Source: Ignavibacteria bacterium (GTDB lineage: Bacteria; Bacteroidota; Ignavibacteria; Ignavibacteriales; SURF-24). Taken from it: 64,000 bases of DNA. A program made the translations under genes and the position numbers. Shown in pieces: positions 5,605 through 9,105 of the stretch. Every line of letters starts with the position of its first letter. The first letter of the stretch is position 1. A model generated the notes under the pieces. It saw nothing but the letters and a program-made list of their open reading frames with translations, was not told the origin of the DNA and did not search any database. The stretch is from NCBI GenBank assembly GCA_025612375.1, contig JAAXKN010000007.1:62001-126000 (forward strand). Direction: 5' to 3'.

Positions 5605-6546
5605 TCATATAATGTATGAACCTGTCAAATCCGATATCTTTTTAATGCCCATTTTTCTGCAATATTCCACCAGCCCCGCTGCTATTTCCACACCCGCATT
5701 AGGGTTAACAAAGTTGACCGTTCCAATCTCAAATGCCGTGGCTCCGACGATCATAAATTCTGCGGCATCCTGCCACGTCATTATCCCGCCTATTCCGATA
5801 ATCGGAATCTTAACCTGCCTTTTAATTTCCAGCACCTTGGCCAAAGCAACCGGTTTAATTGCCGGGCCGGACAGGCCGCCTGTAACGTTAAAGAGTTTAG
5901 GCTTGCGTGTATATATATTAAACGATGTACCAACGAGCGTATTTATGGCTGAAACGGCGTCACCGCCTTCCTCACTTACCACCCTTGCATAACTTGCAAT
6001 GTCGGGCACGTTTGGAGAGAGCTTTATTATTACCGGCTTATCTGTTGCGGCCTTAACCTTCCGTGTAATCTCGCCCACGGCCCTCAGGTCGTGACCGAAT
6101 ATGAGCCCCCCTTCCCTGACGTTGGGGCATGAAATATTAATTTCAAAGGCCTTAATTACATCTTCGGCTGAAAGAATCCGCGTGCACTCCACATACTCCT
6201 CAATTGAGCTTGCGGCAATGTTGCAGACGATATTTGTATCAAACTGCTTCAAGAACGGGACTTTTGTTTTTATAAACTCCTCAACGCCCACGTTTGCCAG
6301 GCCTATTGCGTTCAGCATTCCTGACGAGGTCTCAACTATTCTTTGCGGAGGGTTGCCTTTCCTCGGCTTCAGGCTTACGGATTTTGTAATAACGGCCCCG
6401 ATTTTATTTAAATCGGTAAGGTTCGAGATCTCGTTTCCGTATCCCACGGTCCCGGATGCCAGCATGACTGGATTTTTCAGCCTCATGCTTCCGATCTGAA
6501 CCGAGAGGTCTATGTCCTCAGTGCTTAAAAGGCTCTTCTCAATCAT
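5605..6546 (-). CDS. pyrD: dihydroorotate dehydrogenase, catalytic subunit (class 1B)
   Basis: It oxidises dihydroorotate to orotate with FMN in pyrimidine synthesis. The catalytic base is the cysteine of NISCPNV (C140), which marks class 1; class 2 enzymes have serine. The N-terminal NPVMLASGTVGYG and the FMN-binding IPIIGIGGIMTWQDAAEF are present. It lies directly after pyrK with a 4-nt ATGA overlap, so it is the NAD-linked class 1B form, a PyrD2-PyrK2 heterotetramer in the cytoplasm. The 313 aa length is normal. Confidence 0.96.
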   Translation of the reverse strand: MIEKSLLSTEDIDLSVQIGSMRLKNPVMLASGTVGYGNEISNLTDLNKIGAVITKSVSLKPRKGNPPQRIVETSSGMLNAIGLANVGVEEFIKTKVPFLKQFDTNIVCNIAASSIEEYVECTRILSAEDVIKAFEINISCPNVREGGLIFGHDLRAVGEITRKVKAATDKPVIIKLSPNVPDIASYARVVSEEGGDAVSAINTLVGTSFNIYTRKPKLFNVTGGLSGPAIKPVALAKVLEIKRQVKIPIIGIGGIMTWQDAAEFMIVGATAFEIGTVNFVNPNAGVEIAAGLVEYCRKMGIKKISDLTGSYII

Positions 6547-7301
6547 ATTACAACCTTTCTTATGTCAAAGACCGGACCGTCCTTGCAGACAAGATAGTAT
6601 CCGTCTTTATCGAGGGCCTGAATAGGACAGCCCTGGCAGATGCCGAATCCGCAGGCCATTGCACATTCGGTTGAAACTTCACAGTTGTAGCCGTATTTCA
6701 TGCAGAAATCTTTGACTGCCCTTAGCATCGGGGTTGGCCCGCATGCAAAAACCTTTATTTTTGCCCCGTCTAAAATTGCCTTATTTGCTTCCAGGAGCTC
6801 AACAACGTTTCCCTTAAAGCCCTTTGAGCCGTCGTCGGTGGAAATTATAGCGTTCTTCATTCCGTATGTTATTACGTCACCCGATGAACGCCCGCCTACA
6901 AAGCTGTAAATCTTTTTTTCTTCGGGCATTGCTTTGGTAAGGAAAGGAAACGGCGCAGAACCAAGCCCTCCGGCAACAAAAACGGCACATTCATAATCGT
7001 CACTGATCTTAAAGCCGTTTCCGAGCGGCCCCAGTATATCCAGGACTTCTCCTACCTTTTTATGCGAAAGCGTTTTTGTACCTTCTCCCGGCACGTTGAA
7101 CATGAAAGAAAGGCTGTCGCCATCAACGTCACATATGCTGAAAGGCCTTCTAAGAAGGGGGAAATTGGAATCTGAAACTTTAACGTTACAGAACTGGCCG
7201 GGCTGTGCTTCGCGTGCAATTTCCGGGCAATGCACCTTTAGGAGGAATACTGCATTTCCCAGTTCAATCAGCTGTAAAACTTCTGCATTTGCAATAATCA
7301 A
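6543..7301 (-). CDS. pyrK: dihydroorotate dehydrogenase B, electron transfer subunit
   Basis: PyrK passes electrons from PyrD to NAD through a [2Fe-2S] cluster and FAD. The flavin-binding RRPFSICDVD and the NAD-binding GGLGSAPFPF are in place. The C-terminal cluster ligands are C217, C222 and C225 in ACGFGICQGC plus C239. The 252 aa length fits the family. It is coupled to pyrD by an ATGA overlap. Confidence 0.96.
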   Translation of the reverse strand: MIIANAEVLQLIELGNAVFLLKVHCPEIAREAQPGQFCNVKVSDSNFPLLRRPFSICDVDGDSLSFMFNVPGEGTKTLSHKKVGEVLDILGPLGNGFKISDDYECAVFVAGGLGSAPFPFLTKAMPEEKKIYSFVGGRSSGDVITYGMKNAIISTDDGSKGFKGNVVELLEANKAILDGAKIKVFACGPTPMLRAVKDFCMKYGYNCEVSTECAMACGFGICQGCPIQALDKDGYYLVCKDGPVFDIRKVVI

Positions 7302-7334: not shown

Positions 7335-7997
7335 CTATGCTTTTAGTTCCGGTTTCATGAATTTTTCTTCTACGGCCGTAATTTTATCCAGCCTTTTCTG
7401 GTGCCTGCCGCCAGAAAAAGAGGTTGTCATGAAAACTTCCAGAATCGATTTTATGGTCTCTTCACCAAGCGCCTTTGCTCCAACAACCAATACGTTTGCA
7501 TCATTATGTTCTCTGGCACTTCTGGCCGAGAACTCGTTGTAGCAGGTTGCGGCCCTGATACCCGGGATTTTATTTGCGGTTATTGCCGAGGGAATTCCCG
7601 TAGCGTCCACAATAATCCCGAAATCAACTTTTTTCTCAATTACCTGAAGCGCAACTCCAAGGGCAAAATCGGGATAGTCGCATGAAGCCTCATCATGTGT
7701 CCCTACGTCTATTACACCGTAGGACTTGTCGGTTAAAACCTTTGAAAGCACCCCTTTTATCCGGAATCCCGTATGGTCACTTCCAATTGCCGCTTTGTTA
7801 AGCTTTACCTTTGGAGCGCCTGACGTTGAATCGGCTTCAATTGCCTCAGACTCCTCACGGCGCACAATTGTAATACCAAGGGACTTTATTTTATCTAAAG
7901 CCAGAGGGGTAACAATGTCATTTGGAGCAACAGGCAGAACTTTAATGCCCTGCCTGAATAGCTTTATAATGTCACTTTCCAGGATGAGTTTTTTCAT
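7335..7997 (-). CDS. rpiB: RpiB/LacA/LacB-family sugar-phosphate isomerase with N-terminal extension and no catalytic Cys
   Basis: Residues 68-213 match ribose-5-phosphate isomerase B: IGSDHTGF, CDYPDF, AREHNDANVL with the catalytic-side His164, and the phosphate-binding GGRHQKR. Two things are odd. The loop that carries the catalytic cysteine in E. coli RpiB (CGTGxG) reads DATGIPSAI here, so Asp131 sits at the Cys position. There is also an N-terminal extension of about 65 residues containing IVTPLALDKIKSLGITIV, which resembles a short domain I recall from ethanolamine-utilisation (EutQ/PduL-like) proteins. This is known of RpiB paralogues linked to bacterial microcompartments, but no shell genes are visible here. 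The real substrate is therefore uncertain. It is 33 nt upstream of pyrK. Confidence 0.8.
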   Translation of the reverse strand: MKKLILESDIIKLFRQGIKVLPVAPNDIVTPLALDKIKSLGITIVRREESEAIEADSTSGAPKVKLNKAAIGSDHTGFRIKGVLSKVLTDKSYGVIDVGTHDEASCDYPDFALGVALQVIEKKVDFGIIVDATGIPSAITANKIPGIRAATCYNEFSARSAREHNDANVLVVGAKALGEETIKSILEVFMTTSFSGGRHQKRLDKITAVEEKFMKPELKA

Positions 7998-8037: not shown

Positions 8038-9105
8038 TTATAAGTGCTCTGTCAGCTTCTTCATCTTCAGATAATCAACTACGTTCTTTACTTCCTGTGC
8101 CTTGTCACGCCTGCAGATCAGGAGTGCGTCGTCTGTATTTATGACAATAAGGTTCTCTACGCCTACTACAGCAGTAAACTTCTTGGGCGAATATACATAG
8201 GAGTCACTAGTATTCTGGCAGTAGGTTTTTCCAACCAGTGCGTTTCCGTCCTCGTCTTTTTCAGTCAGCTGGTAAACCTCTTCCCAGCTTCCAACGTCGC
8301 TCCAGATGAACATGCCGCGCGTAAGATAAACGTTTGAAGACTTTTCCATCACGCCGTAATCGATTGAGATGCTCTTTAGCTGTCCGTAGACGTGGCCTAA
8401 AGTCTTCTCAAAGGCAGGAGTATCCAGGCTTCCTTCAATTTCCTTCAGGCCATCAAAGAGCTCGGGCATATAGGTTTCAATTTCGCTTAAAATGGTATCA
8501 ATTCTCCAGATGAACATGCCGCTGTTCCAAAGGAAATCGCCGCTTTCAATAAACCTAACCGCGGTTGCATAATTGGGCTTTTCAGCAAATGTAAGCACCT
8601 TGAATATGTTGTCCTCAACCGGCTTTTCCTCAATCTGAATGTAACCGTATCCTGTTTCGGGCCTTGTAGGATTAATGCCTATTGTAACCAGCCCCTTCTT
8701 TTCATATGCGAACTTTGCAGCAGAGCTTAAAGTCCTCTGGAATTCATCTTTATCTCTTATAATATGGTCGGCCGGGAGTGTCAGTATTACAGCTTCCTTA
8801 TTTTTCTTTCCGACTATGATTGAAGCCAGGCCGATAGCAGCTGCTGTATTCTTACCGAAAGGTTCATCAATAATGTTTTCTGCGGGTAAATCTGAGAGCT
8901 GACTTTTAATTTCTGCTTTCTGGACTTTATTTGTAATGACAAATATATTCTTCTTATCAACCAATCCTTCCAGGCGTTTTACAGTATCCTGGATCATTGA
9001 ATTCTGACCAAAGATCTTCAGAAGCTGCTTAGGTTTCTTTTCCTTGCTTCTGGGCCAGAACCGGGCACCAACCCCGCCAGCCATGATCACTGCATATAGT
9101 TCCAT
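8038..9105 (-). CDS. manC: mannose-1-phosphate guanylyltransferase
   Basis: It makes GDP-mannose from mannose-1-phosphate and GTP for glycan and lipopolysaccharide building blocks. The N-terminal nucleotidyltransferase signature VIMAGGVGARFWPRSKEKKP-KQ is complete. TLPADHIIRD, TGYGYIQ, FAEKPNYATA and FLWNSGMFIW follow in the expected order. The length of 355 aa shows the single-domain form without the C-terminal phosphomannose isomerase cupin. It is 41 nt from rpiB and 10 nt after the unknown gene upstream, probably one transcript. Confidence 0.93.
   Translation of the reverse strand: MELYAVIMAGGVGARFWPRSKEKKPKQLLKIFGQNSMIQDTVKRLEGLVDKKNIFVITNKVQKAEIKSQLSDLPAENIIDEPFGKNTAAAIGLASIIVGKKNKEAVILTLPADHIIRDKDEFQRTLSSAAKFAYEKKGLVTIGINPTRPETGYGYIQIEEKPVEDNIFKVLTFAEKPNYATAVRFIESGDFLWNSGMFIWRIDTILSEIETYMPELFDGLKEIEGSLDTPAFEKTLGHVYGQLKSISIDYGVMEKSSNVYLTRGMFIWSDVGSWEEVYQLTEKDEDGNALVGKTYCQNTSDSYVYSPKKFTAVVGVENLIVINTDDALLICRRDKAQEVKNVVDYLKMKKLTEHL

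Follow-up and report, generated by a model that had tools for sequence, protein, structure and literature searches.

An RpiB-fold protein that carries Asp where its family has a catalytic Cys, and whose N-terminal part recalls ethanolamine utilization (Eut) proteins, raises the question of which reaction it supports and where in the cell it does so. The gene lies in the window, by which we mean the whole stretch of 64,000 nucleotides of an Ignavibacteria bacterium contig (JAAXKN010000007.1) that was analysed. It was singled out by a first-pass annotation made from the letters alone, which suggested a different sugar phosphate or a link to a microcompartment elsewhere in the genome. The reading frame fills exactly the range given there, and both the loop DATGIPSAI and TPLALDKIKSLGITIV are present in its translation. 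We refer to the gene as rpiB-D and to its product as RpiB-D.

Table 1 Features of the rpiB-D locus in window coordinates.
Feature	Position	Strand	Basis
RpiB-fold protein with EutQ-type N-domain, 220 aa	7335–7997	−	Open reading frame, Pfam and NCBIfam scores, AlphaFold2 model, structure superposition
N-terminal domain, residues 1–47, homologous to EutQ residues 2–47; predicted shell tether	7857–7997	−	Profile matches, model; role of EutQ H1/H2 as given in PMC12487888
Variable linker, residues 48–66	7800–7856	−	Alignment; pLDDT <50 at residues 54–65
RpiB-fold catalytic domain, residues 67–214	7356–7799	−	Pfam match, structure comparison
Asp131 codon, at the catalytic-Cys position (Cys66 of E. 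coli RpiB)	7605–7607	−	Alignment
Mannose-1-phosphate guanylyltransferase-like (manC-like) gene, 40 bp upstream; most conserved neighbour	8038–9105	−	Flank comparison
Dihydroorotate dehydrogenase electron-transfer subunit-like (pyrK-like) gene, 33 bp downstream; neighbour only	6543–7301	−	Pfam, flanks

Domain organisation of RpiB-D

The Pfam family LacAB_rpiB (PF02502) covers residues 70–206 with an E value of 3.7e-50, and the NCBIfam rpiB equivalog TIGR01120 gives 156.7 bits, above its cut-off of 138.65. The AlphaFold2 model, built from a 29-row alignment, has a mean pLDDT of 86.9. Its RpiB part (residues 63–214, to which the structure comparisons were confined) superposes on C. thermocellum RpiB (3he8) at 0.7 Å over 148 aligned residues, with a Z score of 27.6. 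Ahead of this part, residues 1–47 form a small, confidently modelled domain with helices at residues 7–15 and 31–40, followed by a linker that is weakly predicted at residues 54–65. Annotation of the gene as plain RpiB only was ruled out, since the active-site Cys is absent from all 72 intact N-extended members of the class.

Replacement of the catalytic Cys by Asp

In ordinary RpiB, Cys66 or Cys69 is described as the base and a Thr as the O1–O2 shuttle (PMC4783025, PMC3755991). The substitutions C69S and C69A inactivate the parasite enzymes (PMC4783025), and the base of the M. tuberculosis enzyme is given as Glu75 (PMC4783025, PMC3755991). The claim that RpiB-D has Asp at the Cys position was borne out, as Asp131, within the loop named above, aligns with the Cys of two crystal structures. 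In a narrow clade, the equivalent residue is Asp in 62 of 62 alignment rows, comprising the window protein and 61 of 65 loci from a scan with one genome per species, after three partial loci and one ordinary planctomycete RpiB had been left out. Across the class, the N-domain and RpiB share one reading frame at 74 of the 80 loci retrieved, and Asp holds the Cys position in all 72 intact N-extended proteins. These 72 rows are 71 loci plus the window; L131, truncated by a contig end, and L126 and L164, with decayed catalytic domains, were omitted.

All 72 rows preserve the equivalents of Asp, His, His99, Asn100, Arg133 and Arg137, residues with roles in ligand or phosphate binding and in ring opening, so the early statement that the phosphate-binding residues are retained holds class-wide; the roles follow the RpiB papers (PMC3212906, PMC4783025, PMC3755991), and the E. 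coli-like numbering was assigned here by alignment. The proton-shuttling Thr is kept in 44 of the 72 proteins and replaced in 28 (27 by V, A, I or L and one by S). RpiBs without the N-domain or an EP-like N-terminus have Cys in 20 of 20 cases. Eighteen of these come from 15 of 22 genomes searched and two from the genome of the window, which encodes two further RpiBs, both of the Cys type. In a quick tree computed without the loop columns, one branch (SH-aLRT 95, no bootstrap) separates 73 D-type from 23 C-type rows.

RpiB-D thus shares with the RpiB/LacAB family (e.g. 3he8) the fold and the ligand, phosphate and ring-opening residues, whereas the Asp in 72 of 72, the replaced Thr in 28 of 72 and the 47-residue N-domain with its linker set it apart. 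Isomerisation of a sugar phosphate would be feasible with a carboxylate as the base in place of Cys. Because Asp has replaced Cys throughout and Thr is often replaced, a different sugar phosphate is plausible as the substrate, and isomerisation of ribose-5-phosphate with Asp as the base would also be compatible with these residues. The loss of Thr would likewise allow a role limited to ring opening, or a non-catalytic one. The fixed Asp may mark an RpiB chemistry specific to bacterial microcompartments (BMCs).

Kinship of the N-domain with EutQ

The NCBIfam model TIGR02536, 'ethanolamine utilization', matches all 43 rows of the N-domain alignment, and the EutQ model matches 22 of the 43 (E up to 0.1). 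When a class-wide N-domain profile was compared with 12 Eut proteins, residues 2–47 of E. coli EutQ scored 8e-11 and EutT 6e-5, the next value being 1.3; a PDB sequence search with the N-domain profile gave nothing better than E 0.11. The Eut likeness proposed by the first-pass annotation was therefore found at the sequence level, in the form of the EutQ/EutT N-domain, while the accompanying label 'BMC-like' did not stand in the sense of a shell (BMC) domain. Chance likeness to Eut proteins was ruled out by the TIGR02536, EutQ and EutT matches together with the distribution across genomes given below.

By profile comparison, the N-domain is homologous to EutQ residues 2–47. Over 45 aligned residues, it shares with the EutQ N-region and the EutT N-terminus the pattern KKLIT..DI......G......IITP.A......G..I, and the motif TPxAxD is nearly fixed in the narrow clade (62 rows). 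According to PMC12487888, helices H1/H2 (residues 9–41) of Salmonella EutQ bind the shell and H3/H4 bind cargo peptides, and EutQ 1–99 sends GFP to the organelle in Salmonella. From its sequence likeness to H1/H2 and its two predicted helices, the N-domain is predicted to be a shell tether. RpiB-D differs from EutQ in having an RpiB domain where EutQ has its C-terminal cupin (acetate kinase-like), and no counterpart of H3/H4 was recognised in it. That an unrelated enzyme carries such an N-domain suggests that this kind of shell tether is portable and could flag cargo encoded far from the shell genes. In the genome of the window, RpiB-D is the sole N-domain match below E 1 (3.1e-21; next 1.1).

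Microcompartment parts in the genome

Shell genes, which the first-pass annotation had proposed to look for, are present in the genome. The PF00936 search found four BMC domains in three genes, two BMC-H and one BMC-T, and the PF03319 search found three BMC-P genes; among 14 control genomes, the same searches were positive in two, E. coli and Synechococcus. The genes are spread over four contigs of a draft assembly of 140 contigs. The two BMC-H genes (C7:48145–49013) are the nearest, about 20 kb from rpiB-D, the BMC-T gene adjoins a PduS-like protein on C1, and the BMC-P genes lie on C27 (two) and C69 (one). The second BMC-H protein (L008 6145–6723 = C7:48145–48723) has a long acidic linker and about 45 C-terminal residues without a Pfam match, and a class II aldolase is found 4 kb from the BMC-P gene on C69.

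Two enzymes of the genome deserve attention. A DeoC aldolase (DERA) is encoded at C7:36121–36987(−) and has an N-extension of about 65 residues. The hydrophobic moment of its N-helix, 0.35, does not stand out, as 29% of 3291 background 14-mers from nine window proteins reach this value. Cys residues follow the helix in the DERA sequences read (L012 6118–6987 and L211–L227), in YC....C or CKDGIC..-like arrangements, and possibly form a metal or redox site. An aldehyde dehydrogenase at C34:7126–8703(+) shares 52% identity over 467 residues with the enzyme of a BMC operon in genome G085. Its C-terminus, MTKDTIDKIIREFKK, is an encapsulation-peptide-like tail whose hydrophobic moment of 0.76 is reached by 0.1% of the background 14-mers. 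PduL was not found in the genome.

Co-occurrence across the class

Among 217 genomes of the class, 79 contain both the N-domain (matches with E up to 1e-3) and BMC-P, one the N-domain only (G139, 78% complete), three BMC-P only (G144, 71% complete; G174; G208) and 134 neither. The N-domain is thus present in 79 of 82 BMC-P genomes versus 1 of 135 without BMC-P, with a Fisher value of 2e-54 that, like the counts, ignores relatedness. G173 belongs to the same family as the genome of the window but has no BMC-P, N-domain or DERA extension, and neither BMC-P nor the N-domain is present in G130 and G165 (family f3).

The 82 N-domain matches comprise 75 RpiB-fused proteins (74 plus that of the window), six other proteins and one (in G015) cut by a contig end. 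All six others, from G119, G065, G085 and G096 and as second matches in G215 and G153, are encoded in BMC operons, less than 4 kb from a BMC-P gene. By eye, that of G119 is EutQ-like and the rest are small, most of them consisting of the N-domain and an encapsulation-peptide-like helix. The shell genes, the distribution over BMC-P genomes and these six proteins give strong support to the suggestion that RpiB-D is linked to a microcompartment encoded elsewhere in the genome. Among the small proteins, open frames of 100–134 aa at L174 7992–8393 (G085), L173 5672–5989 (G215), L176 7995–8294 (G153) and L178 7272–7592 (G065) possibly encode stand-alone shell–cargo adaptors. In two fused proteins, L126 7998–8612 (G073) and L164 2498–3229 (G114), the N-domain is intact and the RpiB active site decayed, and both genomes retain BMC-P genes; with two decayed catalytic domains among 74 fused proteins, a structural role would fit too.

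The DERA search matched 195 of the 217 genomes, and positions were taken from the 146 genomes with a listed match. Among the matches listed, a DERA alignment starting at or before residue 36, taken as the mark of the extension, occurs in 74 of 79 BMC-P-positive genomes versus 2 of 67 BMC-P-negative genomes, namely G212 and the N-domain-bearing G139. The cut of 36 was picked after seeing the list and the counts follow it, becoming 75/79 versus 6/67 at a cut of 46 and 61/79 versus 0/67 at a cut of 10. The BMC-P-positive genomes with a later start are G031 (match at a contig start), G119, G065, G174 and G085 (with its own extension). The DERAs of BMC-P-negative G212 (L229) and G192 (L230), of family f5, have a shortened extension with, by eye, neither helix nor Cys motif, as if left over after compartment loss.

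The fused gene is missing from five BMC-P genomes (G065, G096, G119, G174, G208), in which Cys-type RpiB only, or none, was found. Three of these have a listed DERA match, starting at 64–66, and G096 and G208 gave weak unlisted DERA matches only. In the BMC operon of G085 (L174), DERA, aldehyde dehydrogenase, BMC-H and BMC-P are encoded together with a D-type RpiB whose N-terminus looks EP-like by eye; the N-domain is found there on a small protein of its own. Because of these five genomes and this operon, D-type RpiB seems to go with DERA-type BMCs, not with BMCs in general. Of the six BMC loci read, G085 alone has DERA, and four others match class II aldolase.

Gene neighbourhood

At 67 of 73 class loci, a manC-like gene stands upstream of rpiB-D on the same strand, in 66 cases no more than 700 nt away. 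This order also holds at 61 of 64 loci of a first set, which overlaps the class set in organisms. This pair is conserved across families, yet nothing ties mannose-1-phosphate to the proposed compartment. With the shell, DERA and aldehyde dehydrogenase proteins of this genome as queries, tblastn (E up to 1e-6) gave no match next to any of the 74 class loci or of 64 other loci. The flanks compared spanned up to about 8 kb and were often cut by contig ends, with at least 7 kb available on both sides at 53 of 73 and 29 of 64 loci, respectively. As a control, the BMC-H, BMC-P and aldehyde dehydrogenase queries matched 6 of 6 known BMC loci. On these grounds, a BMC operon around rpiB-D was ruled out within the flanks covered. 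Since the shell genes are scattered and none was found in these flanks, it is co-occurrence and domain homology, and not operon structure, that connect the gene with a microcompartment.

Proposed function and alternatives

From the fold, the residue changes, the N-domain homology, the genome content and the co-occurrence, we infer that RpiB-D is probably a BMC-dedicated, shell-tethered Asp-type RpiB of a dispersed deoxyribose-5-phosphate (SPU-like) metabolosome. Its EutQ-type N-domain would anchor it on the inner surface of a BMC shell encoded at scattered sites in the genome. The same shell would enclose the N-extended DERA and the aldehyde dehydrogenase, which is presumably CoA-acylating. 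There, 2-deoxyribose-5-phosphate from DNA or deoxynucleosides would be converted into glyceraldehyde-3-phosphate and acetyl-CoA, the latter made by the dehydrogenase, with acetaldehyde held back by the compartment; the PduS-like protein and BMC-T would provide electron transfer. With Asp131 in place of the Cys base, RpiB-D would most likely still shift a proton on a 5-phospho-sugar, the carboxylate acting as the base. A more far-reaching version is speculative and on balance unlikely, namely that scattered BMCs, in Ignavibacteria and related families alike, are deoxyribose-phosphate metabolosomes in which RpiB-D gave up isomerisation and opens the ring, mutarotase-like, to feed open-chain 2-deoxyribose-5-phosphate to DERA at the shell. 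Ring opening only is considered because phosphate binding and the ring-opening His and Asn are kept and the Cys/Thr shuttle is lost (Cys in all, Thr in many).

Catalysis might also have been given up altogether. As a tethering scaffold, RpiB-D would bind sugar phosphate or cargo with its RpiB fold and act as a EutQ-like shell–cargo linker; the absence of any other N-domain match below E 1 in its genome, the loss of the Cys base in every protein and of Thr in 28, the inactivity of the C69S and C69A parasite enzymes (PMC4783025), and the decay of the catalytic domain beside a retained N-domain in G073 and G114 all agree with this. However, a plain scaffold would need none of the Asp, His99, Asn100, Arg133 and Arg137 equivalents that are fixed in 72 of 72 proteins, and we hold this explanation to be rather unlikely. 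An ordinary ribose-5-phosphate isomerase that uses Asp as its base and carries the N-domain incidentally appears improbable. The NCBIfam score above the rpiB equivalog cut-off and the Glu75 base in M. tuberculosis (PMC4783025, PMC3755991) speak for it, but the two Cys-type RpiBs of the genome probably fill the housekeeping role, the N-domain occurs in just one of the 135 genomes without BMC-P, and the Thr shuttle is not retained in 28 proteins.

The conserved position of the manC-like gene, upstream on the same strand and mostly within 700 nt, would suit a partnership of RpiB-D with this mannose-1-phosphate guanylyltransferase-like enzyme in nucleotide-sugar metabolism. The co-occurrence, however, tracks BMC-P and the extended DERA, and the rest of the neighbourhood consists of unrelated housekeeping functions (pyrimidine and folate genes, rho), so that the cluster may reflect fixed gene order only; we regard such a partnership as very improbable.

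Relation to known BMC types

The SPU BMC was named by Axen 2014 (PMC4207490), where Melioribacter roseus was already seen to have seven BMC-P genes, spread over five loci. The catalogue of Sutter 2021 (PMC8217296) gives SPU with DeoC and RpiB, and describes FRAG BMCs in Ignavibacteriae that have an aldehyde dehydrogenase but no obvious aldehyde-producing enzyme, leaving their function open. In the open-access literature searched, we found no report that joins FRAG and SPU, links such an RpiB to FRAG BMCs or describes the Asp.

The genome of the window resembles the FRAG BMCs of Ignavibacteriae (Sutter 2021) in taxon, scattered shell genes and its three BMC-P genes, scattering being the defining trait of the FRAG type. 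It differs from them in that an aldehyde-producing enzyme, the extended DERA, can be proposed. Together, rpiB-D and the extended DERA would offer a concrete, testable function for FRAG BMCs, the breakdown of deoxyribose-5-phosphate, supported by gene presence and absence in 217 genomes. In comparison with the SPU BMC (Axen 2014, Sutter 2021), the genes are dispersed, whereas those of SPU form one locus that includes BMC-H and BMC-P; RpiB has a predicted tether of the EutQ type, and PduL was not found. The SPU gene set itself, that is, a DeoC-type aldolase (pfam01791), an RpiB isomerase (pfam02502), an aldehyde dehydrogenase and shell genes, is all present in the genome.
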